This document shows, one piece after another, positions 27,347 through 41,431 of a stretch of 49,467 nucleotides of DNA (position 1 is its first letter; the number at the start of each line of letters is the position of its first letter). The notes beneath the pieces are model-generated. The model was not told where the DNA came from. It saw nothing but the letters and a program-made list of their open reading frames with translations, and did not search any database. A program made the translations under genes and the position numbers. The DNA is from an uncultured Comamonadaceae bacterium. Its GTDB lineage: Bacteria; Pseudomonadota; Gammaproteobacteria; Burkholderiales; Burkholderiaceae. Location of the stretch: the NCBI GenBank assembly GCA_946482595.1, contig CAMLSD010000024.1, positions 1 through 49,467 on the forward strand. Reading direction: 5' to 3'.

Positions 27347-27366
27347 GGCCGGCCGTGCGCCCGGCC
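27347..27366. terminator. Shared hairpin between tolA and the convergent flavoprotein gene
   Basis: GGCCGG (27347-27352) and CCGGCC (27361-27366) form a stem with an 8-nt loop in the 24-nt gap between converging genes. There is no T tract, so it is a candidate bidirectional terminator by position. Confidence 0.4.
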
Positions 27367-28481
27367 TACGCCATGGCCGGCGCGACGCGGAACGAGTCGA
27401 TGAAGCGCTGGTCGATGTGGCGCTTCCAGCGCCATGCAAGGCCACCCAGCCAGGGTGGTGACGCCCAGTCGCCCCAGGCCGCGATGGCCTCGCGGTTGCC
27501 GCAGTCGAGCAACTGCAGCGCGCGGCGCTGCGGTCGGTAGGGTTTCAGGGTCTGGTGGGCCAGCAAGGCGCGCAGGTTGGCGGCCAGCACCGGCCCGGCC
27601 CGAACCGCATGCACACCATTGCGAGGGTGGGGTTCGTCGACCCGCGACGACACGTCGCCGCAGGCGAACACCTCCGGGTGTGAACTCGACTGCAGGCTGG
27701 CCACGGTGGCGATGAAGCCGTCATCCGCGGTCTGCAGGCCGCTGTCGGCCACCCACGCGGGAGGCACTGCCCCGGTGGCCAGCAACGGTGCGTCGCAGAC
27801 CAGCCGGGCGCCGTTGCTGAGCACGACCTCACCGTCGAGCAGTTCTACGCAGTCCTCGGGCAGCACCGTGATCTGACGAGCTCGCAAAGCGGCATGGCAG
27901 CGCGCCCTGAGCTGCGGCGAGTGACGGCCCAGCAGGCCGGCGCGCCCGCTCACCAGGCTCACCCGGGCGCGCCCGGCCAGGCGGTGCGCCACCGCCATGG
28001 CCATCTCGACCCCCGCCGCACCACCGCCGATCACGACCACATGGAGTGGCTTGTTGTCTGCCAGGGCCACGACCTGGGGCCAGAGCTGCGCAAACACCTG
28101 CAGCGGTTTCACGAACAGGCCCTGCGTCTGCGCCCCGGGAATGCGCTTGCGGTCCATCACGGCCCCGGTGTCCAGGCTCAGGACGTCATAGTCCAGCGTC
28201 TTGCCGTCGGCCGTGTTCAGCTTGCGCTGAGCCGCGTCCAGGCTGGCCAGGCTGCCCAGCACCACCTCGATGCCGCCGTCGCGTGCCAGTGCGGCCGCGT
28301 CGATGCAGGTCTGTTCGAAGCTGCAGTGCCCGGCCACATGGGCCGGCAGCATGCCGGAATAGACCTGTTGCGGCGAGGGCGTGAGCAGGCGCAGCCGCAC
28401 GCCGGGCATCGGGGTGCGGCCCCAGTCCTTCAGCACTTGCAGGTGCGCGTGACCCGCCCCGACCAGCAGCACCTGCTTCAT
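27366..28481 (-). CDS. FAD-dependent pyridine-nucleotide oxidoreductase, SelD-associated type
   Basis: A 371-residue flavoprotein of the NDH-2/SelD-N-terminal-like group. FAD site GAGHAHLQVL at the start, NAD site VVVIGGGAAGVEMAMA near 150, and the FAD-contact VFACGDVSSRV late. The opening GAGHAH and YSGMLP are typical of the oxidoreductase that in many bacteria is fused to selenophosphate synthetase; here it stands alone and no selD is in view. There is no redox CxxxxC. It is the last of twelve tightly packed minus-strand genes and overlaps the DUF3047 gene by 4 nt. Substrate unknown. Confidence 0.85.
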   Translation of the reverse strand: MKQVLLVGAGHAHLQVLKDWGRTPMPGVRLRLLTPSPQQVYSGMLPAHVAGHCSFEQTCIDAAALARDGGIEVVLGSLASLDAAQRKLNTADGKTLDYDVLSLDTGAVMDRKRIPGAQTQGLFVKPLQVFAQLWPQVVALADNKPLHVVVIGGGAAGVEMAMAVAHRLAGRARVSLVSGRAGLLGRHSPQLRARCHAALRARQITVLPEDCVELLDGEVVLSNGARLVCDAPLLATGAVPPAWVADSGLQTADDGFIATVASLQSSSHPEVFACGDVSSRVDEPHPRNGVHAVRAGPVLAANLRALLAHQTLKPYRPQRRALQLLDCGNREAIAAWGDWASPPWLGGLAWRWKRHIDQRFIDSFRVAPAMA

Positions 28482-29248
28482 GGCCGTGCTCCCGTGCCCG
28501 CAAGGTGCCGCAGGCCCGCCACCCGGCTCACCGCATGACCGCCGGTGTTGTCGGTGTCAGCCCCGATCGCAATGGCCTGCAGGGGCGGCACCTCGGCGCT
28601 TTCGACGCCAAAGGCCTGGAGGAAGTCGGCTGCGAGGTCGCGGGACTCGCTCTGCCAGGCACCGGGCGGCTCATCGCCCGCGCCACGCAGCACCAGGTAG
28701 CGCACCCGCCGGCTGTATGCGTTGTCGAGCCATGTACCAGTCGGTTGTACCGGGTCGCGCACGTAGCACAGTGTTGCCGCCGGCAGCGGCTGATCGGTCC
28801 GGGCGCGAGCCAGCCGCAGCAACTGCCGCTCGACGAAGGGCACACGATCGAGCGGCATGTCGAACAGCGCGCACACCTTGACGCTGGTGTCGTCCGCCTC
28901 ACGGGTGCGCAGATCGGCCGCATCGGCAAACCGCTCGACCTGCCATTGCCAGCTCAGCACCCCCGCGGCACCCCCCAGCGGATGGACCAGGTTGCCGTAG
29001 GCACCGCGCGCCTCGATGCGCACCGCGGTCCGCCCGTCATGCCGCTCGACTGAAAAGCGGGTGGCCGGCAGGCGTTGCGACGGCAACCCGGCCGGACGCC
29101 AAGGCGGCTCGATCGCACCCTGGACCGTCGCCGCAAACCCTGCCAGTGGCCGGACCTGCGCCTGGCTCGCGACGGACCCGAGCCCCGCGACAACCATGAT
29201 CAGCGCGCCCATCACCGGCCTGCACGCCCCCGCCCTGCCTTCATGCAC
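28478..29248 (-). CDS. DUF3047 periplasmic protein
   Basis: About 256 residues if read from the GTG at 29248, which overlaps the upstream stop (GTGCATGA) and has GGAG nearby; an ATG at 29212 is the alternative. A signal peptide follows (MGALIMVVAGLGSVASQA). The mature chain has the DUF3047 pattern: LSWQWQVERFADAADLRTRE, DDTSVKVCALFD, and RYLVLRGAGD with RDLAADFLQAFG. DUF3047 has no known activity; its fold is thought to be beta-rich. Its place between two flavoprotein genes suggests an envelope role in the same process. Confidence 0.75.
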   Translation of the reverse strand: MHEGRAGACRPVMGALIMVVAGLGSVASQAQVRPLAGFAATVQGAIEPPWRPAGLPSQRLPATRFSVERHDGRTAVRIEARGAYGNLVHPLGGAAGVLSWQWQVERFADAADLRTREADDTSVKVCALFDMPLDRVPFVERQLLRLARARTDQPLPAATLCYVRDPVQPTGTWLDNAYSRRVRYLVLRGAGDEPPGAWQSESRDLAADFLQAFGVESAEVPPLQAIAIGADTDNTGGHAVSRVAGLRHLAGTGARP

Positions 29249-31394
29249 CACCACGTCTCCATTCGAAATACCGCTGCAACCACTGCAGCACCCGCTCGGG
29301 CTTGTGAGCCTTTTTCCACTCGCCCGCCGCATACTTGTTGGCTTCTGACAGTGTCGGATACGTGTGGATGGTTCCCAGGATACGGTTCAGGCCCAGGCCG
29401 TGTTTCATCGCCAGCACGAACTCCGCCAGCAGCTCGGCCGCATGTGCACCCACGATGGTGACGCCCAGGATGCGGTCGCGTCCCGGCTCGGTCAGCACCT
29501 TGACGAAGCCTTCGGCGGCCGAGTCGGCGATGGCGCGGTCCAGGTCGTCGATGCCGTAGCGCGTCACCTCGAAAGGCACGCCACGCGCACGGGCCTCATC
29601 TTCGCTCAGACCCACACGGGCGACCTCCGGGTCCACGAAGGTGGTCCACGGGATCACCCGGTAGTCGGCCTTGAAGCGCCGCAGGTCGCCGAACAGCGCA
29701 TTCACCGCGGCATACCAGGCCTGGTGGGCGGCGGTGTGCGTGAACTGGAAGGGCCCGGCCACGTCGCCGGCAGCCAGGATGTTGGGATACAGCGTCTCGA
29801 GGTACTCGTTGGTGTCGATCACCCGGCGTCCTGCCGCAGCAGGAATGCCCAGTGCCTCCAGGCCATAGCCTTCCAGTCGAGCGACGCGGCCCACGGCACA
29901 CAGCAGCACGTCGAACTCGATGGCCACCTCACCGGCGGCACTGCGCGCCCACAGGGTGTGCCCCTCGAAGCGCAGGGCCTGGTGGCCGGTCAGCACGCGC
30001 ACGCCGTCGGCCTCCAGCGCGTGCTGCACGGCCTGCGCCACGTCGGTGTCCTCGCGCCCCATCAGCCGCGGGGCCATCTCGACCTGGGTGACCTGCGAGC
30101 CCAGGCGGGCAAAGGCCTGGGCCAGCTCGCAGCCGATCGGGCCGCCCCCCAGCACCAGCAATCGCCTCGGCCGCTCGCTCAGGGTCCACAGCGTGTCCGA
30201 GGTCAGGTAGCCGGTCTGCTCGATGCCCGGCAGCGGTGGCACGAACGGCTGTGCGCCCGCGGCGATGACGATGCTGCGGGTGGTGAGGCGGCGCGTGCCG
30301 CCCTGCGCATCGGTGATCTCCACCGTCCAGGGGTCGACGATGCGGGCCCGGCCGATGGCCACGTCCACACCCAGGCCGGTGTAGCGCTCGACGGAATCGT
30401 GCGGCTCGATGTCGGCAATCACACGCTGCACACGGGCCATCACGGCCGCGAAGTCGATCTCGGGTTCAACGTCCTTCAGCCCGAAGCGGCCTGCGTGGCG
30501 CATCTCGTGGGCCAGTCGGGCGCTGCGAATCAAGGCCTTGCTCGGCACGCAGCCGTAGTTCAGGCAGTCGCCGCCCATGCGGTGCGCCTCGACCAGCGTC
30601 ACCTTGGCGCGTACCGTCGCGGCAATGTAGGCACTGACCAGCCCGGAGGCACCGCCGCCGATCACCACCAGGTTGCGATCAAAACGGCGCGGTCGCCGGC
30701 CGCGCCAGGGCGCGTAGACCCGCATGCGCTTCCAGGCTTCGAGCACGCGGCGCGCCAGCAGCGGAAACACCCCCAGCAGGGCAAACGAGGCCAGCAAGGC
30801 GGGCGAGACGATGCCCGCCAGTGTGTCGATGCGGGCCAGTTGCGTGCCCGCATTCACGTACACCACCGTGCCGGCCAGCATCCCCACCTGACTCACGAGG
30901 TAGAAGGTCGACGCCTTCATCGCCGTGAGGCCCATGGCCAGGTTGATGATGAAAAACGGCACCAGGGGCACCAGTCGCAGGGTGAACAGGTAAAACGCAC
31001 CCTCGCGCTTCACGCCGGCGTCGATCTGCGCCAGACGAGCGCCAAACCGCGTCTGCACCATGTCTCGCAGCAGATAGCGCGACACCAGGAAGGCCAGGGT
31101 GGCGCCCACGCTGGACGCAAACGACACCAGCACCGTCCCCCACAGCAGACCGAACACCGCACCACCGGCCAGGGTCAGAATGACCGCGCCGGGGAGCGAC
31201 AACGCCGTGACCGCCACGTAGACCAGCGCATAGGCCCCTGCCATCCAGAACGGGTGCGCCTGCCGCCAGGCTTCCAGCTGGGCCCGGCTGGCCTTGAGCG
31301 ACTCCAGGCTCATGTAGCGGCCGAGGTCGAAAGCGAAGAACAGCACCACGGCCAGCACCGCGCTCAGGATCAACAGCAATTTGCGCCAGGGCAT
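29241..31394 (-). CDS. TVP38/VTT membrane domain fused to a mercuric-reductase-like flavoprotein
   Basis: A 717-residue fusion. The start at 31394 has GGAG about 10 nt upstream and clears the preceding stop. Residues 1-225 form a TVP38/TMEM64 (VTT) membrane domain with several helices and LRLVPLVPFFIINLAMG. Residues 240-717 are a class I disulfide reductase: FAD site VVIGGGASGL near 246, redox pair Cys277 and Cys282 in GGDCLNYGCVPSKAL, NAD site VLGGGPIGCELAQAF, and a dimerisation region with IHTYPTLSEANKYAAGEW, where mercuric reductases also end. MerA's N-terminal metal domain and C-terminal vicinal Cys pair are absent. Separate E. coli relatives YdjX and YdjZ lie beside ynjABCDEF. Confidence 0.9.
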   Translation of the reverse strand: MPWRKLLLILSAVLAVVLFFAFDLGRYMSLESLKASRAQLEAWRQAHPFWMAGAYALVYVAVTALSLPGAVILTLAGGAVFGLLWGTVLVSFASSVGATLAFLVSRYLLRDMVQTRFGARLAQIDAGVKREGAFYLFTLRLVPLVPFFIINLAMGLTAMKASTFYLVSQVGMLAGTVVYVNAGTQLARIDTLAGIVSPALLASFALLGVFPLLARRVLEAWKRMRVYAPWRGRRPRRFDRNLVVIGGGASGLVSAYIAATVRAKVTLVEAHRMGGDCLNYGCVPSKALIRSARLAHEMRHAGRFGLKDVEPEIDFAAVMARVQRVIADIEPHDSVERYTGLGVDVAIGRARIVDPWTVEITDAQGGTRRLTTRSIVIAAGAQPFVPPLPGIEQTGYLTSDTLWTLSERPRRLLVLGGGPIGCELAQAFARLGSQVTQVEMAPRLMGREDTDVAQAVQHALEADGVRVLTGHQALRFEGHTLWARSAAGEVAIEFDVLLCAVGRVARLEGYGLEALGIPAAAGRRVIDTNEYLETLYPNILAAGDVAGPFQFTHTAAHQAWYAAVNALFGDLRRFKADYRVIPWTTFVDPEVARVGLSEDEARARGVPFEVTRYGIDDLDRAIADSAAEGFVKVLTEPGRDRILGVTIVGAHAAELLAEFVLAMKHGLGLNRILGTIHTYPTLSEANKYAAGEWKKAHKPERVLQWLQRYFEWRRGGA

Positions 31395-31419
31395 GGAATC
31401 GCTCCAGTGGGTGCGTGGG

Positions 31420-32034
31420 TCAGGGCCGTCCGGCAAAGGCCTGCCAGCCCGCCACGATGCGGGTCACGATGGTCAGTGCGCACAGGGCGGCAAACCCCAG
31501 TGCGAGTGCCGGGAAGTGCGCGGGCCACAGGCACATCAGGCTGAAGCAGATCAAGGTCTCGCTGCCTTCGGTCAGGCCACCGAGGTAGTAGAAGCCCTTG
31601 GACGGATAGGCGGTGCTGCTCAAACCGCGCCGCGCCGCCAGCACCGCAAATGCCAGGAAGCTGCTGCCGGTGCCCATGAACGCCGCCAGCAGCACGGCCG
31701 CCGCCAGCGCGTTGCCGGACGGATCAGCCAGTGCAAATGCCAGCGGAATGCTCGCGTAGAAGAGGAAGTCGAGCGTGATGTCCAGGAAGGCACCGCGGTC
31801 GGTCGGTGTGGTCAGGCGAGCGACGGCGCCGTCCAGTCCGTCGAACAGCCGGCTGAGCCACATCAGCGCCAACCCCCAGCCCGGTCGCCCCGCAGCAATG
31901 GCCGCAGCCGCCCCCAGGCCGGTGGCAAAACCGAACCAGGTGAGCGTGTCGGCATGGCAACGTGCTGCCACCAGGCGGCGAGCCATGGCATCGATCCCCG
32001 GCCTGAGCCAGGCCAGCGCAATGCGGTCAAGCAT
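31420..32034 (-). CDS. CDP-alcohol phosphatidyltransferase, YnjF-like
   Basis: A 204-residue integral membrane enzyme. The family signature is complete: DGLDGAVARLTTPTDRGAFL followed by DITLD, giving the D-G-x2-A-R-x8-G-x3-D-x3-D pattern that binds the CDP-alcohol and two metal ions. Several hydrophobic helices surround it. These enzymes transfer a phosphatidyl group onto an alcohol; the acceptor is unknown. E. coli YnjF, of the same family, also follows ynjBCD. The ATG overlaps the ATPase stop by 8 nt (ATGCTTGA). Confidence 0.88.
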   Translation of the reverse strand: MLDRIALAWLRPGIDAMARRLVAARCHADTLTWFGFATGLGAAAAIAAGRPGWGLALMWLSRLFDGLDGAVARLTTPTDRGAFLDITLDFLFYASIPLAFALADPSGNALAAAVLLAAFMGTGSSFLAFAVLAARRGLSSTAYPSKGFYYLGGLTEGSETLICFSLMCLWPAHFPALALGFAALCALTIVTRIVAGWQAFAGRP

Positions 32035-32674
32035 CGGCGGACTCCCCCTGCGCAGCCACCTGCACCACCCTTGCACCTGGCGGCACGTCGGCCACATCGT
32101 GCGTGACCAGCACGGTCGGGACACCACGCCGCGCCAGTTCGGCAAACACCTGCGTGCGGAAGCGCTCTCGCAGCCGCGCATCCAGCCGCGAGAACGGCTC
32201 ATCCAGCAGCAGTGCGCGTGGCGCCGCGAGCAGGGCACGCAGCATCGACACGCGGGCGCGCTGCCCGCCCGACAGCGTGGCCGGCATGCGATCGCCCAGA
32301 CCGGCCAGCGAGGCGTCGGCCAGTGCAGCATCGCAGCGCGCACGGCGTTCGGCGCGCGAGCCGCCGCGCAGCGCGAACAGCAGGTTCTCGCGAACGCTCA
32401 TGTGCGGGAACAGCAGGTCGTCCTGAAACAGGATGCCGACCTGCCGCGCCCCCAGCGGCAGGTGATGGATCTCGCGCCCGTCGAGCAGGATGCGGCCCCG
32501 CGCACTGAACGCCGGGTCCAGCGTACCGCACAGCCAGGCCAGCAGCGTGGACTTGCCCGAGCCGCTGGGCCCCATCACGGCGAGCACCTCGCCCGGCTGC
32601 ACGCACGCATCCAGGCCGTCGAACAACACCCGATCGCCCAGCCGGATGTGGGCCTCCCGGATTTCCAGACTCAT
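32027..32674 (-). CDS. ynjD: ABC transporter ATP-binding subunit, YnjD-like
   Basis: A 215-residue ABC ATPase. Walker A GPSGSGKSTL (about 35-44), Q-loop ILFQDDLLFPHMSVRENL, signature LSGGQRARVSMLRALLA, Walker B ALLLDEPFSRLD and His switch VLVTHDV are all present, so it should be active. Start at 32674 overlaps the permease by 4 nt. The gene order with an upstream double permease and binding protein matches ynjBCD. Confidence 0.92.
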   Translation of the reverse strand: MSLEIREAHIRLGDRVLFDGLDACVQPGEVLAVMGPSGSGKSTLLAWLCGTLDPAFSARGRILLDGREIHHLPLGARQVGILFQDDLLFPHMSVRENLLFALRGGSRAERRARCDAALADASLAGLGDRMPATLSGGQRARVSMLRALLAAPRALLLDEPFSRLDARLRERFRTQVFAELARRGVPTVLVTHDVADVPPGARVVQVAAQGESADA

Positions 32675-34320
32675 CTTGCCCTCCCCTGCCAGGCGGCCCA
32701 GGCCAGCACGATGGCCGGCAGCACCATCTGCAAGGCCGCGAAGGCGGCACTCAGGTGACGCTGGCCGCCGGCGGCCAGCGTCAGCGCCTCCGTGGTGACC
32801 GTGCCCAGGCGCCCGGCACCGACAAACTGCGTCGGCAGGTACTGCGCCACGCTGACGGCAAAGCCGATGGCAAATGCCGAGGCGAGCGGTGCACGCAGCA
32901 CCGGCCACTTGACCCGCACCAGGTGCGCCCAGGCGCCACGGCCCAGCGTGCGCGCTGTCAGGCGCAGGCGATCGTCATAGGCACGGTAGGCCGGCGCCAG
33001 CGCCACCCAGACGTAGGGCGCGACAAACATGAGATGGACCCACCACAGCCCGGCCGGCTGCCCGTCGAGGCCCAGCTGCAGCGCCACCGTGTAGAAGCCG
33101 GCCGACAGCAGCAGCGACGGCAGCACCATCGACGCATAGATCCAGGGCGTGGCCCACGCATCGACACGCGCGGGCAGTGCCTCGAGCCAGGCAACCACCA
33201 GCAACAACGCCGCAGACGATGCACCGGCCGCCAGCAGCGCCGTGCGACTCACCAGCGGTGCGCTGGCCCACACCTGCTCCCAGGCCGACAGCGTGAGCAG
33301 TTCAGGCCGCAAGTCAGGGAAGCGCCAGACGCCCGCCACGGACACCCCGGCCAGCACCAGCACGCAGACCAGGTAAAGCCCTTGCCACAGCGCCACCCCG
33401 GCACGCACGGCCACCTGCGGGCGCAGCCGGCCGATGCCGCCGGGCGGGCGGCGCGGCAGCCCCCGCGCCAGTGCGTGCCGGCGCATGAACCCGGCCACGC
33501 GCCACACACCGAGCAGGGCCAGCATCACCGCCACCCAGGTGCCCACCAGCAGCCACACGGCCGCTGCACCCTGGGCCTGCAGCGTCGGGCTTGCATCGAG
33601 CAGCCACTGCCATGCCAGCACGCCCAGCACCGGCGGCGTGCCTGGCCCCAGGACCACGGCCATGTCGACCACGGTGAGCCCGTAGGCCACCACCGCGCCC
33701 AATGGCCAGGCCAGCGTCGGCACCAGCACGGGCCACAGCACCTGCCAGGCGATCTGGGGCGACGACAGCCCCATCGAGCGGGCCACCCCGATCTGCTGGC
33801 GCAGCACACCCTGCAGCCCGGCGCGCTGCAGGCCGGCCAGTGCGGTCCAGACGAGAAACGGCACTTCCTTGGCGACCAGCCCGGCCACCAGGGCCCAGCC
33901 ACCCGGGTCCTGCACGGTGGCCATATCGGGCGGCTGTTGCCAGCCCAGCCACGGTGCGAGCAGGCGCGCCACCACACCGCTGGGCATCAGCAGCAGCCCC
34001 AGGGCAATGGCAAAGGCCAGGTGCGGCATCGCCAGCATCGGCGCGAGGCGCTGCTGCAGGCGTCGACCGGCATCGCTGCCGACCACGCTGGAGACCACGC
34101 TCAGTGCCAGCACCAGCGAGACCAGGCTGCTGACCAGGCCCACGCGCAGGCCCAGGCCCCACGCGGGCAGCCACTGGCCGTCGGCCCACAGGGCCTGCCA
34201 TGCGGCCACATCGGCGGCCCGCACGGCCGCAGCGGCCACCGCCCAGGCCATCGGCAGCGCAAAGGCCGCGAGGGCCACGGCAACCACCGCAGCCGGCGCA
34301 AGCCAGGGCGTGACCCTCAT
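32671..34320 (-). CDS. ynjC: ABC transporter permease with two fused membrane domains, YnjC-like
   Basis: A 549-residue permease built from two BPD-type membrane domains in tandem (about 1-270 and 300-549), as in YnjC and in iron/thiamine-type transporters. EAA-like loops appear at QIGVARSMGLSSPQIAWQVL and RLTARTLGRGAWAHLVRVKW. About twelve hydrophobic helices are seen. Start at 34320 overlaps the binding-protein stop by 4 nt. Substrate unknown. Confidence 0.88.
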   Translation of the reverse strand: MRVTPWLAPAAVVAVALAAFALPMAWAVAAAAVRAADVAAWQALWADGQWLPAWGLGLRVGLVSSLVSLVLALSVVSSVVGSDAGRRLQQRLAPMLAMPHLAFAIALGLLLMPSGVVARLLAPWLGWQQPPDMATVQDPGGWALVAGLVAKEVPFLVWTALAGLQRAGLQGVLRQQIGVARSMGLSSPQIAWQVLWPVLVPTLAWPLGAVVAYGLTVVDMAVVLGPGTPPVLGVLAWQWLLDASPTLQAQGAAAVWLLVGTWVAVMLALLGVWRVAGFMRRHALARGLPRRPPGGIGRLRPQVAVRAGVALWQGLYLVCVLVLAGVSVAGVWRFPDLRPELLTLSAWEQVWASAPLVSRTALLAAGASSAALLLVVAWLEALPARVDAWATPWIYASMVLPSLLLSAGFYTVALQLGLDGQPAGLWWVHLMFVAPYVWVALAPAYRAYDDRLRLTARTLGRGAWAHLVRVKWPVLRAPLASAFAIGFAVSVAQYLPTQFVGAGRLGTVTTEALTLAAGGQRHLSAAFAALQMVLPAIVLAWAAWQGRAR

Positions 34321-35546
34321 GTACCGTAACGTCGTGTCCACTCGCGCTCAAGTGCCTCGACCCAGCTGGCGTGTGGTTCGGGCAAGGCCGGCGCGGGCTG
34401 GGTCACTGCGCCGGGCACGGCAGCGCCCAGGAAGAGCTGACGCTGCGCGGGCGGCAGCCGATCCACCGCGAGCACGGTGGGGTCACCCCAATGGCGGATG
34501 TCGGCCTTGCGGGCCTGGGCCAGCGGTGACAGCAGGAAGTCGATCGCCACCTGGGCACCTTCGCGAGCGCGGGCGTTGAAGGGGATGCCGATGAAATGCG
34601 TGTTGCCGATGGTGCCGCCACGGTGCTGCCACGCAATGGTTGTGGGCGGCAGCAGCCGCGACGCCACGTGATTGGCCGCCGCATTGGGGTTGAACGTCAG
34701 CGCGATGTCGAGCTCGCCATCGGCCAGCATCTGGCGCAGCGCCGCATCGTTGGCCGGGAACTGCCGCCCCTGACGCCAGAGCTGGGGATGCAGGGCATCG
34801 AGGTAGGCCCACAGGGGCGCCGTGGCCGCGGCAAAGGCCTCGCTGCGCAAGGGCTTGTGGAGCACCGCGCGCACCGGAGTCAGCTCGCTGAGCACCTGTT
34901 TCAGGAAGGTCGTGCCATGAAAGTTCGGCGGCTTGGGATAGGTGAAGCGCCCCGGCCGACGCCGCGCAAATTCGGCCAGATCCTGCACGCTGCCTGGCGG
35001 CTGCGGCACACGTTCGCGGTCGCCGTAGAAGGTGAGCTGGGCCATGCCCCACGGGGCCTCCATGCCGTCGACGGGCTCGGAGAAGTCCACCCGTGTGGTG
35101 GGTTTGCCGTCGACGTCGACCAGGGCATAGGCCGGCAACTGCTCGGCGAACGGGCCGAACAACAGACCCTCACGTTTCATGGCGAGGAAGTTCTCGCCAT
35201 TGATCCAGACCGCGTCGACTGAACCGTCCCGGGTGCGCCCGGCCTGCTTTTCGGCGCGCACACGCTGCACGACCTCGGCCGCATCGGCGATCTTCACATG
35301 CACGAGCTTCACGCCATGACGCTGCTCGATCTCAGCGGCGGCCCACTGCAGGTAGGCGTTGATGCGGTCACTGCCCGCCCAGGCATTGAAGTGCACGGTC
35401 TGGCCACGGGCAGCGGCCTCGATCCGTCGCCAGGCCTCGGACGGCGCCGAGCCCATCGAGGACTGTGCCGAGCCGAGGCCCGGCCATGCCAGGCTGGCCA
35501 GTGCGGTGCAACGAGTGAGGAGTGTGCGTCGTTTCATCGTGGTCAT
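34317..35546 (-). CDS. ynjB: ABC transporter substrate-binding protein, YnjB-like
   Basis: A 409-residue binding protein; Met4 at 35537 is an alternative start. The N-terminus has KRRTLL followed by a hydrophobic stretch ending GLGSAQ, resembling a Sec or weak Tat signal. The mature chain has the family features VHFNAWAGSDRINAYLQW, VDAVWINGENFLAMK and APWGMAQLTFYGD. YnjB-like proteins belong to the class with iron(III) and thiamine binding proteins, but ligand is unproven. It begins 6 nt after the DinB-like gene. Confidence 0.88.
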   Translation of the reverse strand: MTTMKRRTLLTRCTALASLAWPGLGSAQSSMGSAPSEAWRRIEAAARGQTVHFNAWAGSDRINAYLQWAAAEIEQRHGVKLVHVKIADAAEVVQRVRAEKQAGRTRDGSVDAVWINGENFLAMKREGLLFGPFAEQLPAYALVDVDGKPTTRVDFSEPVDGMEAPWGMAQLTFYGDRERVPQPPGSVQDLAEFARRRPGRFTYPKPPNFHGTTFLKQVLSELTPVRAVLHKPLRSEAFAAATAPLWAYLDALHPQLWRQGRQFPANDAALRQMLADGELDIALTFNPNAAANHVASRLLPPTTIAWQHRGGTIGNTHFIGIPFNARAREGAQVAIDFLLSPLAQARKADIRHWGDPTVLAVDRLPPAQRQLFLGAAVPGAVTQPAPALPEPHASWVEALEREWTRRYGT

Positions 35547-35552
35547 GGAGTC

Positions 35553-36086
35553 TCAGAGCGGATCGGCCAGTGCGATCAGGTCGGTCGTACCCACGTCGAT
35601 GCCGGCCTGCATCAGCAGGGTCGTGACCTGCCCGCGGTGGTGCGTCTGATGGTTGAAGAAATGGCTCAGCGCCTGCCAGGTGCGCATGGCCCGCGGCTGA
35701 CCGGTGGTGGTGGTGTAGTGCAGCGTGCCGGCCAGGAGCGGGTCGGTCAGGGCCTGAGCGAACTGCTCGATGGCCTCGTCAAGGGCCGCCCGCTCATGCG
35801 CCAGCGCGCCGAAATCGGCATGGAGCTGCATGTCCAGGCCGGTGAACCCCGGGATGGCCAGGCGATCAGCGTCCAGGCTCTCGAACGGTGCGAGACCGGC
35901 AAACCGCCGCAGCCAGATGCGGTCTCCGACCATCACATGGTTGAGCGTGCCATGAATGGAGCCGAAAAACGCACCGCGCTCGCGCTTGCGCTCTTCGTCC
36001 GAAAGGCGCCCGGCCGCCTCATACAGCCGTGCGTTGAACCACCGGTTGTACCGGGCCATGAAGACATAGTGGTCGCTTGCGGGCAT
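35553..36086 (-). CDS. DinB-family metal-binding protein
   Basis: A 177-residue four-helix-bundle DinB/YfiT-type protein. Three histidines expected to bind a metal are visible in GTLNHVMVGDRIW and HFFNHQTHHRGQVTTLLMQAG. Some family members are thiol-dependent S-transferases (bacillithiol or mycothiol users), others unknown. It opens with HYVFMARYNRWFNARLYE, as usual. It lies 9 nt after the DoxX gene and 6 nt before the transporter genes, linking the two halves of the long operon. Confidence 0.88.
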   Translation of the reverse strand: MPASDHYVFMARYNRWFNARLYEAAGRLSDEERKRERGAFFGSIHGTLNHVMVGDRIWLRRFAGLAPFESLDADRLAIPGFTGLDMQLHADFGALAHERAALDEAIEQFAQALTDPLLAGTLHYTTTTGQPRAMRTWQALSHFFNHQTHHRGQVTTLLMQAGIDVGTTDLIALADPL

Positions 36087-36095
36087 CGGCGAAGT

Positions 36096-36590
36096 CTACA
36101 CAGCCGCCCCGGCCCGCCCGGTGGCGCGACGCTGCGGGGCGCCACGCAGCCGGCCGCCCAGCCAGTGGTCGAACGACCAGCGCCCGGGCCCCCACAGCAG
36201 CAGGCCCGCCAGCAGGGCGCCCCAGAACAGATGCTGCTGCCAAGCGGCCGGCGCGATCTCGGGCAGGCTCACCACCGCCACGGCATTGACCACGAACAGC
36301 CCCAGGGCCGCAAACCGGCCGGCCAGGCCCAGCATCAGCAGCACGGGCAGCACCAGCTCGCCGGCCGTGCCCATCACGGCCGCCAGCTCGGGCGACAGCA
36401 GCGGCACCTGGTATTCATCAGTGAACAGCGCCACGGTGATCTCCCAGTCGCGCAGCTTGGTGAGCCCGGACAGGAAAAACACCTGGGCGACGTGGTAGCG
36501 CGCCGCCAGCTGTGCCAGCGGCTGGAGTGATTCGAGTCCACGCACGGCACGCTGCCAATGGGTGTCGAGGGTGTGCAGCAAGGGGCTCAT
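36096..36590 (-). CDS. DoxX-family membrane protein
   Basis: A 164-residue DoxX protein with four predicted helices. The first is marked by QVFFLSGLTKLRDWEITVAL, followed by ELVLPVLLMLGLAGRFAALG and a C-terminal helix near HLFWGALLAGLLLWGPGRW. DoxX genes are frequent partners of DUF2282-DUF692-DUF2063 (bufferin) clusters, where their role is unclear. It starts 11 nt after bufC. Confidence 0.9.
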   Translation of the reverse strand: MSPLLHTLDTHWQRAVRGLESLQPLAQLAARYHVAQVFFLSGLTKLRDWEITVALFTDEYQVPLLSPELAAVMGTAGELVLPVLLMLGLAGRFAALGLFVVNAVAVVSLPEIAPAAWQQHLFWGALLAGLLLWGPGRWSFDHWLGGRLRGAPQRRATGRAGAAV

Positions 36591-36601
36591 GGTCGGGTTC
36601 C

Positions 36602-37501
36602 TCAGGGTTGGGGTCGTGGGGGGTCGCCTGCCCCGGCGGGCAAGGCATGCACGGCCAGCAGCCAGCCATGCTTCAGCGCACGCGCCAGCCAGTCGGCAAG
36701 GTCAAAACCACCACCGGCGGCGTCCAGCGCTTCGGCCAGCGTGGCACCGGCCTCGACGGCATCGAACCAGGCTGCGTCGCCCGGCGCCGCCTCGGCCACG
36801 CTCACCTGCCAGCCATGGCGACAGACCACCGCCGTTTGTGCCTGCGCGCCCGCCAGTGCCGTGCGCACGGCCTCGAAGGCGGCATCGCGTGCCGGTCCTT
36901 GTGCGCGATGGGCGTGCCAGATCGACACGATCGGATGTGGCGATGCCAGCCGCACGAGCGCTGGATGCAGCACCAGGCGCAGCCGGTTCGGCTCGGCCGC
37001 CGCCAGCAGGTCAAACGTCTCGGGGGCTGCCGGCGCATCTGCCGCATGCGAGGCCCGATGCACGGCCCAGTCCAGCCGGGCCGAGTCGGCCAGCCAGGGC
37101 CAGTCCTGCAGGTCTTCGCTGTGCTCGACCAGCGCCGGCACGGCCTCGCCGTACCAGGCCAGGTCGCCCCGGGTGGCGGGGTGGCGCAGCCGGTAGACAC
37201 GTGCCAGCGTCTCGAATGATTCGTCGCCCAGCATCTGCTGCAGCGTGGGATACGCCGCCGCGAGCGCGGCATGGGCGCTGGCCTGGGCATTCGCCCGGTA
37301 GGCCGCCACGCCGCGCCGGGCCGTCGCGCCATCCTGCTGGAGCCAGCCGGCCAGCACCGGAGACAGCGGTGCATCAAAGCGCGCGAGCACCGCCGAAGCC
37401 AGCAGTTGCTGGCGCAGTTGTTCACGGCGGCGCAGATCGCCGGTGACTGGCGCGCCGCTGCCCGCCCCGCGTGGCGGCGATGAAGACCGGCGCGCCGTCA
37501 T
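36602..37501 (-). CDS. bufC: BufC/HvfC-family maturation partner (DUF2063)
   Basis: A 299-residue protein starting at 37501, overlapping bufB by 4 nt. The N-terminal half is the DUF2063 (HvfC/BufC) domain, with GVAAYRANAQASAHAALAAA and YPTLQQMLGDESFETLARVY, then HPATRGDLAWYGEAVPALVE. The C-terminal half is helical and alanine-rich. This family is the accessory partner of MNIO maturases and is thought to help bring the precursor peptide to the iron enzyme. The first 25 residues are basic and low in complexity. Confidence 0.88.
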   Translation of the reverse strand: MTARRSSSPPRGAGSGAPVTGDLRRREQLRQQLLASAVLARFDAPLSPVLAGWLQQDGATARRGVAAYRANAQASAHAALAAAYPTLQQMLGDESFETLARVYRLRHPATRGDLAWYGEAVPALVEHSEDLQDWPWLADSARLDWAVHRASHAADAPAAPETFDLLAAAEPNRLRLVLHPALVRLASPHPIVSIWHAHRAQGPARDAAFEAVRTALAGAQAQTAVVCRHGWQVSVAEAAPGDAAWFDAVEAGATLAEALDAAGGGFDLADWLARALKHGWLLAVHALPAGAGDPPRPQP

Positions 37502-38454
37502 GCGGCCTGCCTCCAAGGCGACGCGGCAACGGGCGCCGGGGCCAGCAGCATTTCGCGTTGGCAGTCGGCGGCGCAGGCCGCCTCGTCGAGCAGCACGTCG
37601 AACTCGGGCAGGTCGGTGTCCCACTCGATCAGGGTGGGCACGGTACCGAAACGCTGGAGCGCATGGCGGTACACCGCCCACACCGAGGCATCGACCCGAC
37701 TGCCGTGGTGGTCGATCACCAGGTCTGGCGTCACCAGATGGCCCGCCAGATGGATCTCGGCAACGCTGCCCACGGGCAAGGCATCGACATGGTCCATGAC
37801 CGCCTGCACCGGGTCGACCGTTCGACCGCGACGCCCGGCATTGAGTCCATTGACCACGAGGTTGTTCAGGTCCAGCAGCAGCCGGCAGCCGGTACGGCGG
37901 CACAACTGCGCCAGGAATTGCGCTTCGCTCATCGTGCTGTCGGCCCAGTCAAGGTAGGCCGACAGGTTCTCGACCACCAGTTCCCGGCCGAGGCGCTCCT
38001 GCACCTGCTGGACGTTTTCGCACATGATCGCCAGCGCGTCTTCGGTGAAGGCCACCGGCAGCAGGTCGTTCAGGTGAACGACCTGGGCCGCCGCGCTCCC
38101 GGCATGGCGGGGCCAGGCGGTACGGGCAAACGAGGCATGGTCGGAGACGCGCACCGGCTCGATGCGCTCGACCAGCGCGGCCAGCCGTTCCAGGTGCCAG
38201 GGGTCCAGCCCTGCGGCCGAGCCCAGCGACAGGCCCACACCGTGCAGGCTGACGTCACACCGTGCCCTGGCCTGCTCGAGCAGCCCGAGGGCGGCGCCGC
38301 CATCGCCGAAGTAGTTCTCGCTGTGCACTTCCACGAAATCCAGCGCGTGTGCGCCTTCCAGGAAGTCGCGGTGGTGGGGGTGGCGCAGTCCGACCCCGAC
38401 AGCCGACCGGGCGGCAGCGCCGGGGTGACCCACCGGGATCGGGGTGTGGCTCAT
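37498..38454 (-). CDS. bufB: MNIO-type RiPP maturase BufB (DUF692)
   Basis: A 318-residue DUF692 multinuclear non-heme iron oxidase with a TIM-barrel fold. Likely iron ligands are spread over HSENYFGDGG, SLHGVGLSLG, RVSDHASF, VVENLSAYL, LLLDLNNLVVNG and EIHLAGH, all standard family motifs. Relatives MbnB, TglH and BufB/HvfB modify cysteines of small peptides, in bufferins to heterocycles that bind copper. It begins 10 nt after the bufA1-like gene, which supplies the obvious substrate. Confidence 0.95.
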   Translation of the reverse strand: MSHTPIPVGHPGAAARSAVGVGLRHPHHRDFLEGAHALDFVEVHSENYFGDGGAALGLLEQARARCDVSLHGVGLSLGSAAGLDPWHLERLAALVERIEPVRVSDHASFARTAWPRHAGSAAAQVVHLNDLLPVAFTEDALAIMCENVQQVQERLGRELVVENLSAYLDWADSTMSEAQFLAQLCRRTGCRLLLDLNNLVVNGLNAGRRGRTVDPVQAVMDHVDALPVGSVAEIHLAGHLVTPDLVIDHHGSRVDASVWAVYRHALQRFGTVPTLIEWDTDLPEFDVLLDEAACAADCQREMLLAPAPVAASPWRQAA

Positions 38455-38464
38455 CGACCGGGCC

Positions 38465-38746
38465 TCACTTCTTCATGGCCTTGTCGCGCGCCTCGGCCGT
38501 GGACAGCCCGCCCATCTGCTTGCAGGTGCCCTTGGCCACGTACTTCCACTCGCCCGGGTCACCGTCGACCTTGGACTGCCCGGCGCAGGAGTGCGTGCCG
38601 GCGAGGTTGGCGCAGTCGTTCTGCCCGGCCTTGGCAATGCCGTAGCACTTTTCCTTGCCCTTGTCGTCGGCCGCGGCGGCGCCGGACACCAGGCCCAGGG
38701 CCATCACCGAAGCCAGGGCGGAAGAAACGAGGTGCTTGTGATTCAT
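38465..38746 (-). CDS. bufA1: BufA1-family bufferin precursor (DUF2282)
   Basis: A 93-residue secreted peptide. The ATG at 38746 has AGGAG upstream. A signal peptide ends at about residue 26 ([10 protein letters not shown]). The mature part carries four cysteines, Cys34, 45, 54 and 75, in [25 protein letters not shown] and [10 protein letters not shown], the DUF2282 pattern. BufA1 peptides are modified by BufB and exported to the periplasm, where they bind copper and protect against it. It heads the long minus-strand operon. Product structure here is inferred from family knowledge only. Confidence 0.93.
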
Positions 38747-38747
38747 G

Positions 38748-38832
38748 CGGGATCTCCTGATCGATCGAAGCCAGTCACCCGGGGCGGATGCCGTCGGCCA
38801 TGCACTGGCCTGCTTCAGTCGCGGAGATCCCG
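38748..38832 (-). promoter_or_regulatory. 10-bp inverted repeat covering the bufA1 ribosome site
   Basis: GGAGATCCCG at 38757-38748 (minus) contains the Shine-Dalgarno GGAG of bufA1, and CGGGATCTCC at 38832-38823 is its exact reverse complement, 65 nt upstream. If both arms are transcribed they could form a 10-bp stem hiding the ribosome site. If transcription starts between them, the dyad could instead act only in DNA. Confidence 0.6.
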
Positions 38833-38843
38833 ACCTTCTTACA
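38815..38843 (-). promoter_or_regulatory. Candidate ECF-type promoter for the bufferin operon
   Basis: On the minus strand TGTAAG (38843-38838) and CGACTGA (38821-38815) are separated by 16 nt, a layout like extracytoplasmic-function sigma promoters that drive bufferin operons in other bacteria. Transcription would begin near 38808, leaving a leader of about 60 nt. No sigma or anti-sigma gene is in the window, and the match is by eye. Confidence 0.35.
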
Positions 38844-38852
38844 CAGTGCGCA

Positions 38853-40175
38853 TCAGGGCGGCGGCAGGTCGGGCATGGGCTGGGTCGTCTCGGCCAGGAA
38901 GGGCAAGGACGAGGTCGAGGCGAACAGTCGCGAGTCGAGCTTGCTGGAGACGACCTCGGGCGAGGCGTAGAAGCGCACCCGGTTGCGGCCGGCGCGCTTG
39001 GCTTCGTACAGCGCCTCGTCGGCGTGACGCAGCAGGTCCACCGCGTCGGTCTGGCCCAGCGCGAGCTCGCGCGCCGAGGCATAGGCCACCCCCACGCTCA
39101 TCGTGCAGCTCAGGAAGCTGCGCCCGGTGTCGATCTCCAGCGTCTCGAAGCTGCGGCGCAGTCGATCGGCAAACACGCGGGCGCCGGGAACATCGGTGCC
39201 CGGCAGCACCAGGCAGAACTCCTCGCCACCCAGCCGCGCGAAGATGTCGGTCTCGCGCTTGGCGCGATGCACCAGTTGCGCCAGCGCCTTGAGCACCAGG
39301 TCGCCGACATGGTGGCCGTGGGTGTCATTGACGGCCTTGAAGTGGTCGACGTCGATCACGAGCAACGCAACCGACTGCCCGAGCTGCGCCGACAGCGAGG
39401 CCAGGCGGCCGGTGCGGTCTTCGAAGCCTCGCCGGTTCAGCGCGCCGGTCAGCGGATCACGCACGGCCTGGGCGCGCAGACGCTCGGCGAGCTGAAACGT
39501 CACCAGCAGCACATACAGCATCACCAGCGCGCCGGTGGCCACAAACACCACACCCACCAGCCAGCCGTTGGCCGACACCACCACGGCGCTGATGTCCGCG
39601 CCCCCCAGTGCCGACCACAGCCCGGCCGGCTGCTCGCGCAGGATCAGCAGGCCACGCAGCGCCCAGCCCGCAGCTTCGACCGCGGTGCACGCCGCCACAC
39701 CCAGGAACAGCGGATGGAAGCCACGGCGGGTGTGCCGCAGCGAGGTCCAGCCTGCCCACAGCCACAACCACGCCGCCAGGGCCGACACCGCGGTGGTGGT
39801 CAGCACCGGCCGGTCGAACCATTCGGCCGGCACACACACGGCCGCCCCCAGCCCCAGGGCCACCCCCCAGTGCCAGAACGAACGCGGTGCCCCTGCGTAA
39901 CGGCGCATGCCTTCGATCACGCTGGCCACACTGGCCAGCAGCACCAGCTCGCCCAGCACATAGGTGGCACGGGCGGCGGCCGAGGTGGCCTGCATGGCGG
40001 GGCCTGCCAGCCACATGCCGATCAGCCCGCAGGCCGCCCCGGCGCCCCACCAGCGTGGACCGGGGATGTCACGGACCAGTCGGGCCAGCACCGCCATCAG
40101 CACGATGGTGACGACCAGCAGGATGCTGAAGGCCGCAGCCAGGCCGGCGTACTGGGGCAGGCCCAGGGTGGTCAT
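38853..40175 (-). CDS. Membrane diguanylate cyclase with I-site
   Basis: A 440-residue protein with about six or seven membrane helices (1-225) and a C-terminal GGDEF domain (about 240-405). The active site reads GGEEF, with [13 protein letters not shown] and [14 protein letters not shown] metal-binding motifs, so c-di-GMP synthesis is expected. RETD, five residues before GGEEF, is a complete inhibitory site (RxxD), so product feedback is likely. A 35-residue tail follows. Its start overlaps the upstream GGDEF gene by 4 nt, and it ends 106 nt before bufA1. Confidence 0.93.
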
Positions 40176-41431
40176 GCCGGGCTCCTTGCGGGTGCACGCC
40201 AGGGTGCACCGGGCAGGGGCTGCTCCGGGGCCGGTGCAGGTGGTGCCAGCATGCAGCAGTTGCGGCCCCGGGCCTTGGCCTCGTAGAGCGCCGCATCCGC
40301 GCGCTGCAGCAGCTCGTCCCAGGTGGCCTGGGAGCCGGGCATCGAGGCCACGCCGATGCTCACCGTCACCGCCAGTGGCTGCCCCGCCTCGCCAAAGCGC
40401 TGCTGCAACACCGCCTGGCGCAGGGCCTGGGCAGCCGCAAGGCCGGCGTCGTCATCGGCACCGGGCACGATCACCACGAACTCCTCGCCGCCCAGGCGCG
40501 CCACCAGGTCGGCCTGGTGAAAACTCTTCATCAGCAGCCGGGCGAACTGCTGCAGCACCCGGTCACCGACCGGGTGACCATGCTCGTCGTTGATGCGCTT
40601 GAAGTGGTCGAGGTCACAGGCCAGCACCGCCACCGGCCGGCCCACACGCCGGGCAAACGACAGCAGCGTGGGGACCGCCTCATCGAGCCCGCGGCGGTTG
40701 AACACCTGGGTCAGCGGGTCCTTCACGCTCAGCTCCGCCAGCGCCTCGTTCATGTTGGCCGTCATCAGCAGCGCAAGACCGGTGATCGCCGCGAGCAGCA
40801 GCATGGTCGTGACCATGCCCAGCGCGGCGTTGACTTCGATCGCCCGCGCGTCGGGCAGCCAGCCCGGCACGGCAAACAGGCCCATGCGCAGCACGGCCAG
40901 CAGCGCCATCAGGCCAAAACTGGCGCGCAGGTACAGCCTCACCTCGCGGAGCCCGCTGCGCGAGAGTTCGCCCAGTGACCACCAGGCCGCGCCCATCAGC
41001 AGCGCGATGCCGGCATTGCGCACGGTCAGGCGTGCTTCGACCACGGGCCACACGGCCACGAAACCCGCGCAGGCCACGAGGCTGGCCATCACCACCCCGC
41101 CGGCAAACGCCCAGGGGCGCGACAACCCCAGGTGATGGCGCAGGCCGATCAGCAACAGGCCGTAGCCGCTGAGCAGCACCGGCTCACGCAGCACCAGCAG
41201 CAGCGGCGGCAGCGCCTCGCCCTTCACCAGCAGCGCACTGCCGGCCGCCAGCGGCACGAAAGCGACGGCCCAGTAGCCCGCGCCCCGCACGTCCGGCACC
41301 CAGCGCGAGGCGATACCCACGATCGCCGCCAGCAGGAGGCCGAGCAGGGAGCTGGCAAAGGCGACGGCAGAGAAGTCCAAGGGGCAGGCAGCGTGGCAGT
41401 GGCGGGCAGAAGTGCCGGTCGAGTATGCCAA
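40172..41431 (-). CDS. Membrane diguanylate cyclase without I-site
   Basis: A 419-residue protein with seven or so membrane helices and a C-terminal GGDEF domain. KDPLTQVFNRRGLDE, DLDHFKRINDEHGH and GGEEF are intact, so it should make c-di-GMP. The I-site position reads HQAD rather than RxxD, so feedback inhibition is doubtful. The ATG at 41431 is the longest reading; a TTG at 41380 before DFSAVAFASSLLG is an alternative, and neither has a clear ribosome site. It overlaps its downstream paralogue by 4 nt. Confidence 0.9.
   Translation of the reverse strand: MAYSTGTSARHCHAACPLDFSAVAFASSLLGLLLAAIVGIASRWVPDVRGAGYWAVAFVPLAAGSALLVKGEALPPLLLVLREPVLLSGYGLLLIGLRHHLGLSRPWAFAGGVVMASLVACAGFVAVWPVVEARLTVRNAGIALLMGAAWWSLGELSRSGLREVRLYLRASFGLMALLAVLRMGLFAVPGWLPDARAIEVNAALGMVTTMLLLAAITGLALLMTANMNEALAELSVKDPLTQVFNRRGLDEAVPTLLSFARRVGRPVAVLACDLDHFKRINDEHGHPVGDRVLQQFARLLMKSFHQADLVARLGGEEFVVIVPGADDDAGLAAAQALRQAVLQQRFGEAGQPLAVTVSIGVASMPGSQATWDELLQRADAALYEAKARGRNCCMLAPPAPAPEQPLPGAPWRAPARSPA

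Follow-up and report, generated by a model that had tools for sequence, protein, structure and literature searches.

Bufferins are peptides that bind copper and are reported to hold its excess in the periplasm, and they are made by an MNIO maturase and a DUF2063 partner protein. The genes of the Buf1 or gig cluster encode a DUF2282 precursor, the MNIO, the DUF2063 protein and DoxX, in this order (gigPABT of C. metallidurans, CC3254-CC3257 of Caulobacter). These four core genes also follow one another in that order on the minus strand of contig CAMLSD010000024.1 (assembly GCA_946482595.1) from an uncultured Comamonadaceae bacterium, whose positions 1 to 49,467 are called the window below. As in the Buf1/gig clusters, a four-cysteine precursor is preceded by a site resembling promoters of extracytoplasmic function (ECF) sigma factors. 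Unlike the known Buf1 clusters, the one in the window runs unbroken into eight more genes, including ynjBCD and a fusion of a TVP38 domain with a flavoprotein. This run is probably an operon read from the candidate ECF-sigma promoter before bufA1, within an envelope copper/oxidant regulon of Burkholderiales.

A landscape study of bufferins gives the core as the precursor, MNIO, DUF2063 and DoxX genes, joined by sigma/NrsF genes in Buf1 clusters, and describes extra conserved genes as extremely rare; its main text does not mention ABC transporters, TVP38 or ynj genes (PMC12452194). In the freely readable literature (subscription papers lie outside it), neither TVP38 nor YnjB was found beside GigP, DUF2282, MNIO or bufferins among the papers listed (seven of eight); ynjB and ynjF were not found in one paper, and TVP38 was absent from the papers sharing DUF692, plasmid and DoxX.

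Several regulons combine bufferin clusters with repair of oxidized methionine. Caulobacter sigma-F is described as controlling MsrP (YedY) and two buf clusters via GTAACC-N16-CGAA in the response to chromium and cadmium (PMC3511200). Haemophilus RpoE2, like SigE of Neisseria, is reported to control msrAB and a DoxX/MNIO cluster on exposure to hypochlorite (PMC7907618), and Msr genes are listed as common to Brucella and other ECF16 systems (PMC8315932). The gigPABT genes of C. metallidurans are presented as a copper- and gold-induced operon beside rpoQ-rsqA, with no promoter identified in that account (PMC10304878), and the gig promoter of Legionella is reported to respond to gold and copper (PMC5413113). 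The promoter layout of sigma-F is very close to that of the window motif, and MsrP or MsrAB share one ECF sigma factor with MNIO/DoxX clusters in the sigma-F as well as the RpoE2/SigE regulons. Unlike in these systems, in relatives of the window the site also precedes ynjBCD and the TVP38-flavoprotein gene, and the anti-sigma factor is of the zf-HC2 or NrsF type depending on lineage.

The second half of the run also has described counterparts. The ydjXYZ-ynjABCD stretch of the E. coli type, with ynjF (Klebsiella is an example), likewise brings together TVP38-type proteins, ynjBCD and a CDP-alcohol transferase; unlike the run in the window, it has no bufferin genes. In E. coli this stretch is reported to be activated by FNR (PMC3688515) and weakly raised on BaeR overproduction (PMC2731931).

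The twelve-gene run

The run extends on the minus strand from 38746 to 27366 and comprises twelve open reading frames (ORFs), all with family matches. The candidate promoter and the genes are listed in the order of reading, with distances in nucleotides (nt).

38818..38843, minus strand: ECF-type promoter-like site TGTAAGAAGGTCGGGATCTCCGCGAC, 71 nt before the bufA start, 23.7 bits
38465..38746, minus strand: bufA1, Buf1 bufferin precursor of 93 amino acids with a signal-peptide-like start and four conserved cysteines; PF10048 (DUF2282), 90.5 bits
37498..38454, minus strand: bufB, MNIO maturase; PF05114, 303.4 bits; the best of five NCBIfam models is NF050167 (BufB), 309.2 bits, cut-off 310
36602..37501, minus strand: bufC, DUF2063 partner protein; PF09836, 56.2 bits
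36096..36590, minus strand: doxX, membrane protein of bufferin clusters; PF07681, 58.7 bits
35553..36086, minus strand: DinB-family protein (dinB); PF05163, 104.7 bits
34317..35546, minus strand: ynjB, periplasmic solute-binding protein; NF008633, 515.3 bits, cut-off 203
32671..34320, minus strand: ynjC, permease; PF00528, 25.1 bits, slightly below the cut-off of 26.4; tblastn orthologues adjoin ynjB in many loci
32027..32674, minus strand: ynjD, ABC ATPase; PF00005, 112.9 bits
31420..32034, minus strand: ynjF-like CDP-alcohol phosphatidyltransferase; PF01066, 31.1 bits
29241..31394, minus strand: VTT/TVP38 membrane domain fused to a disulphide-type flavoprotein, here called tvpR; PF09335, 78.0 bits, and PF07992, 192 bits
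28478..29248, minus strand: DUF3047 protein; PF11249, 157.7 bits (scanned from 29245); GTG at 29248 is one of several candidate starts
27366..28481, minus strand: TIGR03169 (Nterm_to_SelD) flavoprotein, not fused to SelD; 355.5 bits, cut-off 310

From bufA1 down, the genes are spaced by 10, -4, 11, 9, 6, -4, -4, -8, 25, -8 and -4 nt, where the overlap of 8 nt before the DUF3047 gene assumes the GTG start at 29248 and would change with an alternative start. Thus the gaps of at most 25 nt and the six overlaps of 4-8 nt described in an earlier, sequence-only reading of the window are confirmed by re-computation of starts and gaps, and the gene names proposed there agree with the Pfam and NCBIfam matches. 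The cluster has the features of Buf1: a DUF2282 precursor, with the DUF2063 partner and DoxX next in order. The four cysteines and the signal-like start of BufA1 were read by eye rather than with a signal-peptide program; the four-cysteine pattern is kept in 37 of 39 bufA rows. Among the relatives found, Caldimonas mangrovi is the nearest (YnjB identity 74-78%). Its locus L001 is the only one of the 80 best loci described below in which dinB stands between doxX and ynjB as it does in the window.

No sigma-70-like promoter was found between 26.5 and 39.5 kb of the window. The same region contains nine terminator-like matches against 4.5 expected. Seven are on the strand of the run, six of them within its coding sequence and one past its end (26922). 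The run is followed by a convergent TonB/TolA-like gene.

Recurrence and rearrangement of the gene set

A scan of species genomes for YnjB gave at least 584 relatives, of which the best 80 were kept. In a tblastn search of these 80 with the window genes, buf genes were found immediately 5' of ynjB in many of them. Adding the window and 58 more stretches, in 57 of which ynjB was called, gives 138 loci, 124 of them distinct; this set is biased to relatives of the window. Buf1 genes precede ynjB in 26 of the 124 distinct loci (window counted), a precursor with EGKCG repeats and another MNIO cluster in three, and an ECF sigma gene without MNIO in five. In 51 loci ynjB directly follows ftsY, 34 have other upstream regions, and five are too short. 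The linkage of buf genes and ynjB, for which the sequence-only reading proposed a gene-neighbourhood survey, does recur in relatives. The proteins of the linked loci are 33-89% identical to those of the window. The earliest possible ynjB start lies at most 50 nt from the doxX stop, or overlaps it, in 19 of the 20 linked loci that lack dinB and have start candidates. Eleven of the 26 linked loci also carry an ECF gene upstream.

Two variants of the upstream region stand apart. In Limnohabitans-type loci (L056, L067, L071) the place of Buf1 is held by the EGKCG-repeat precursor, a different MNIO, DUF2063 and an NrsF/ECF pair. In L028, L076, L021, L037 and L117, genes of ECF sigma and/or anti-sigma factors are divergent from ynjB, with no MNIO genes between.

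Of 299 genomes drawn evenly across the family, 48 have YnjB; Buf1 genes were upstream at 8 of the 46 loci inspected (one of these, L115, has no ynjB call and three are short; the partial matches in G210 and G214 were left out). A class-wide draw gave YnjB in 14 of 369 genomes. Two are the linked genomes G001 and G119, already counted; ten others have no Buf1 genes upstream, and two more had less than 500 nt of upstream sequence. A DUF2282 gene is present anywhere in the genome in 32 of 48 genomes with YnjB vs 142 of 251 without it.

All 26 Buf1-linked and the three EGKCG rows of the YnjB tree, which excludes the five short loci, fall into one clade of 42 rows (SH-aLRT, the Shimodaira-Hasegawa-like approximate likelihood ratio test, 90). 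The linkage label changes six times on this tree vs 23.6 times in shuffles. In the BufB tree, from which four linked loci were omitted for want of a full MNIO row, linked rows form two groups matching two YnjB subclades, and therefore both one gain with losses and two gains are possible.

The genes also occur together in other arrangements. In L144 (G010) and L149 (G285) the buf cluster runs on into ynjF and tvpR, with ynjB on a separate contig. A conjugative Citrobacter plasmid (L159, NZ_CP083652.1, 2900-14400) carries ten of the twelve genes in a different order: DUF2282, DUF692, DUF2063, DoxX, the TVP38-flavoprotein, the second flavoprotein, ynjBCD and the CDP-alcohol gene, adjoined by a sigma-70 gene. 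The proteins of this island are 35-57% identical to those of the window. A search of 72,556 plasmid records gave the 11.5 kb island at 99% identity or more in 24, with coverage of at least 80% in 21 of these; it is also present in three of 5,426 E. coli genomes. The island plasmids are mostly conjugative (20 of 24), and their hosts are Klebsiella, Salmonella, Providencia, Escherichia and Citrobacter, several from milk, veal or cattle. Another plasmid, Paraburkholderia pSYMBR3459 (L163), has, behind its buf cluster, a gene with the annotation GDCCVxC domain-containing (seleno)protein.

As judged from these comparisons, the buf-ynj linkage is real, old and lineage-bound. It is not a chance neighbourhood, since it recurs at 33-89% protein identity and in the shuffled form on plasmids. 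Moreover, the genes appear to be under selection as a set, because they are kept together despite such divergence and shuffling. One alternative is that two stress modules without a common pathway are co-transcribed behind one ancestral promoter and joined by inheritance alone. This would agree with the restriction of Buf1 linkage to one YnjB clade among the loci examined, with the match between the two BufB groups and the two YnjB subclades, and with the presence of buf and ynj genes not being clearly correlated across genomes. However, L144, L149 and the plasmid island link the same genes in other arrangements, and the motif described below precedes unlinked ynjB and tvpR genes, so that we regard mere co-transcription as rather unlikely.

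The promoter-like motif and its candidate regulon

The upstream regions of bufA share the motif TGTAAGR-N15/16-nGAC, that is, TGTAAG, usually a purine, and nGAC 15-16 nt on. A site of this form precedes bufA in all 21 loci used for building the model (the strict form in 16), and the site at 38818-38843 is the sole one of at least 12 bits on both strands of the window. The matrix was trained on the 21 bufA upstream regions alone and then run on those of ynjB with a threshold of at least 16 bits. Sites were found before 26 of 89 ynjB genes without Buf1 vs none of 24 Buf1-linked ones (Fisher p 0.0017; two linked loci had no usable ynjB upstream region or anchor and were excluded). By upstream type, the counts are 16 of 51 for ftsY, nine of 30 for other, one of five for ECF-only and none of three for EGKCG loci. 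The controls gave 78 of 9,920 random windows (0.8%), none among reversed and reverse-complemented ynjB upstream regions and none of 54 ftsY upstream regions. In the even sample the motif precedes ynjB in 21 of 36 unlinked genomes (L137, with a short upstream region, was excluded). Two Piscinibacter loci, L004 and L006, are nested among the linked YnjB rows; they have no buf genes upstream, and the motif stands directly before ynjB. Judging by the linked and unlinked counts, the motif precedes bufA where the buf genes come first and can precede ynjB where ynjB is first.

Among 20 chosen unlinked buf loci (14 from genomes with YnjB and six others), 13 have a site before bufA, and most of these 13 have a divergent ECF sigma gene with or without zf-HC2. 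The loci L150, L154 and L156 have NrsF-type pairs and no bufA site; L152, L154 and L156, whose bufA calls are doubtful, were counted as site-less.

The strict motif occurs one to seven times per genome across ten genomes. Of 20 strict sites that were read gene by gene, 13 precede genes for secreted or membrane proteins. Eleven of these were identified: MsrP, BufA2, tvpR and DUF1223 (two each), MsrB, a catalase-family protein and a TlpA-like protein, the last belonging to the AhpC-TSA family and scoring below the TlpA cut-off. The other two are unclassified secreted CxxC proteins. No Msr gene stands behind the motif in the window; among relatives, MsrP does so in two genomes and MsrB in one. 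A crude automatic test for a signal-peptide-like ORF 5-100 nt downstream was passed by 13 of 20 motif sites vs five of 20 reversed-motif sites; these 13 overlap with the 13 found by reading and are not the same, as L178 passes and L181 fails the crude test. As a side observation, the ECF motif in L176 and L179 is followed by the gene of a secreted, unclassified protein that contains the stretch NADCASCW; the L179 protein has no Pfam or NCBIfam match. The identified targets, mainly methionine-sulphoxide reductases and catalase-like, thiol and bufferin proteins, point to oxidation of the envelope and copper more than to import and reduction.

The site before bufA is ECF-type promoter-like, and its use by a sigma factor is putative. 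ECF sigma genes stand beside such loci with zf-HC2 (L053) or with NrsF (L067). The window itself has two tandem GGDEF genes (38853-41431) 5' of the run and in the same direction. A tandem GGDEF pair is also present in C. mangrovi (L001), where an ECF/zf-HC2 pair sits between the GGDEF genes and bufA. In the window, unlike L001, the interval from the GGDEF gene to bufA has no ECF/anti-sigma pair, so that any sigma factor using the site would act from elsewhere in the genome. Since these genes are not beside the operon, we claim likeness to the sigma-F and RpoE2 regulons, not proven membership.

Several observations weigh against the proposed operon and regulon. The absence of an ECF pair in the window is one of them, and control of gig by RpoQ is not shown in the account of C. 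metallidurans (PMC10304878). The totals of strict motifs per genome are not above the reversed-motif control, only position and gene content being different. Six of 36 strict hits are part of the coding sequence of the sigma gene itself and carry no meaning, and seven of the 20 sites read precede an ATP-grasp protein, other genes or nothing clear. The 16-bit threshold was chosen after the first hits had been seen; at this threshold 63 of the 89 ynjB loci without Buf1 and seven of the 20 unlinked buf loci have no site. The bufA-derived motif was not found before ynjB in the EGKCG loci L056, L067 and L071, and there is no good match to it before bufA of the plasmid island. The presence of DUF2282 and of the ynjB motif are not significantly associated (15 of 22 vs six of 14, p = 0.18). 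Most YnjB loci have no bufferin linkage, and the linked ones are kin, so that their counts are not independent. Finally, the linked loci L009, L016, L020, L074 and L079 have a separate site before tvpR, and the window shows none; thus the whole run need not always depend on the bufA promoter.

On the other side, at the level of sequence the comparisons establish which genes make up the set, that it recurs and has rearranged copies, and that bufA, ynjB, tvpR and msrP-type genes of relatives are preceded by the candidate motif. The suggestion of the sequence-only reading that both halves act as one unit is strengthened: the linkage recurs and is rebuilt in other orders, and the motif stands before bufA in linked loci and before ynjB in about three of ten unlinked ones. 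The outcome named there as contradicting it, a promoter between dinB and ynjB together with no recurrence in related genomes, was not found, although tvpR has its own motif in some linked relatives. It is thus likely that the twelve genes form one operon inside an envelope copper/oxidant regulon of the sigma-F/RpoE2 kind.

The proteins of the ynj half and their possible roles

The flavoprotein domain of tvpR has the CxxxxC disulphide site in all 49 rows and the His-Glu site in 46 of 49. Its closest solved relative is a mercuric reductase; the mark of mercuric reductase, MerA, is a C-terminal vicinal cysteine pair. This raises the possibility of a mechanism similar to that of the mer operon, in which the bufferin binds copper or gold outside, YnjBCD imports the metal or its complex, and the TVP38-flavoprotein reduces it inside. 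As in the mer operon, genes for a periplasmic metal peptide, import and a flavoprotein reductase are adjacent in the run, and ferric-ion and metal-citrate binders are among the fold neighbours of YnjB. Furthermore, a buf cluster lies inside a mer operon on a Rhodanobacter plasmid (L164, NZ_CP088981.1). The DUF2282-DUF692-DUF2063 genes are placed there within the stretch from merR to merT, which by itself suggests a part for bufferins in mercury resistance. However, unlike the mer operon the run has no MerT or MerP and has an ABC importer instead. No MerA-type cysteine pair was found in the last 40 residues of tvpR in any of the 49 rows, and its score with the MerA model TIGR02053 is 344.3 bits, under the cut-off of 454.45. 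YnjBCD is common without bufferins, a single-sequence search with YnjB gave no solved relative at E <= 0.001, and the motif targets that were identified are for the most part genes of oxidant repair and bufferins. Copper import during copper stress would also be counter-productive. Thus a Mer-like route is improbable, and the proposal of the sequence-only reading that a metal or chalcogen is captured, brought in and reduced finds no specific support.

The AlphaFold model of YnjB (pLDDT, the predicted local distance difference test score, 90.9) matches many solved solute-binding proteins. Its fold fits many ligands, the matches including binders of 2-aminoethylphosphonate, sugar phosphates, glycerophosphocholine, polyamines, iron and sugars; this too counts against our reading, and any particular substrate named for YnjB would probably be wrong. 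Importers of methanobactin take back the copper-loaded peptide, and YnjBCD might similarly re-import the copper-loaded bufferin or its fragment. The importer genes directly follow those of peptide maturation, and both the solute-binding protein and the MNIO product are expected in the periplasm. However, 16 of the 48 YnjB genomes have no DUF2282 match, and the fold neighbours of YnjB bind small polar solutes, sugars, dinucleotides and ions, not peptides of 70 residues, which makes re-import very improbable.

The motif of CDP-alcohol phosphatidyltransferases, DxxDGxxARx7-8GxxxDxxxD, is kept in 76 of 77 rows of YnjF-type proteins and in the window sequence. The nearest solved relative of the TIGR03169 flavoprotein is the NDH-2 enzyme YjlD, with FSP1 among the next PDB matches; NDH-2 and FSP1 enzymes reduce quinones. 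SelD scores above the cut-off in 273 of the 299 family genomes; as it is near-universal in the family, its co-occurrence gives no contrast that would link the flavoprotein to selenium.

For the operon within an envelope copper/oxidant regulon, the following sequence of events may be suggested. Copper or thiol-oxidising stress would free the sigma factor. After modification by BufB/BufC and export, BufA1 would trap excess copper in the periplasm. YnjBCD may import a small polar solute, YnjF would build a phospholipid from CDP-diacylglycerol, and the TVP38 domain may handle membrane lipid. The flavoprotein domain of tvpR and the NDH-2/FSP1-like flavoprotein would re-reduce disulphides and quinones damaged by copper or oxidants. 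Tentatively, the ynj half could be the membrane-repair arm of the regulon, with import of a lipid head group as the best single guess. A more specific version is doubtful: YnjBCD, YnjF, TVP38-flavoprotein and the TIGR03169 protein would be a membrane-repair system dedicated to the bufferin regulon, with import of a phospho- or amino-alcohol head group, synthesis of a protective phospholipid, and quinone and thiols kept reduced by the FSP1-like flavoprotein. If so, capture of copper outside and protection of lipids inside would be switched on jointly and travel jointly on plasmids.

To our knowledge, the conserved ynjBCD, ynjF and TVP38 proteins have no assigned function, E. coli K-12 included. 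Their placement in a copper/oxidant ECF regulon together with bufferins and MsrP would give them a first testable role, with a promoter motif that can be mutated. Linked, unlinked and buf-less loci provide natural experiments on hand. The bufferin story would thus widen from a peptide to a larger envelope response, which is also mobile on conjugative plasmids.

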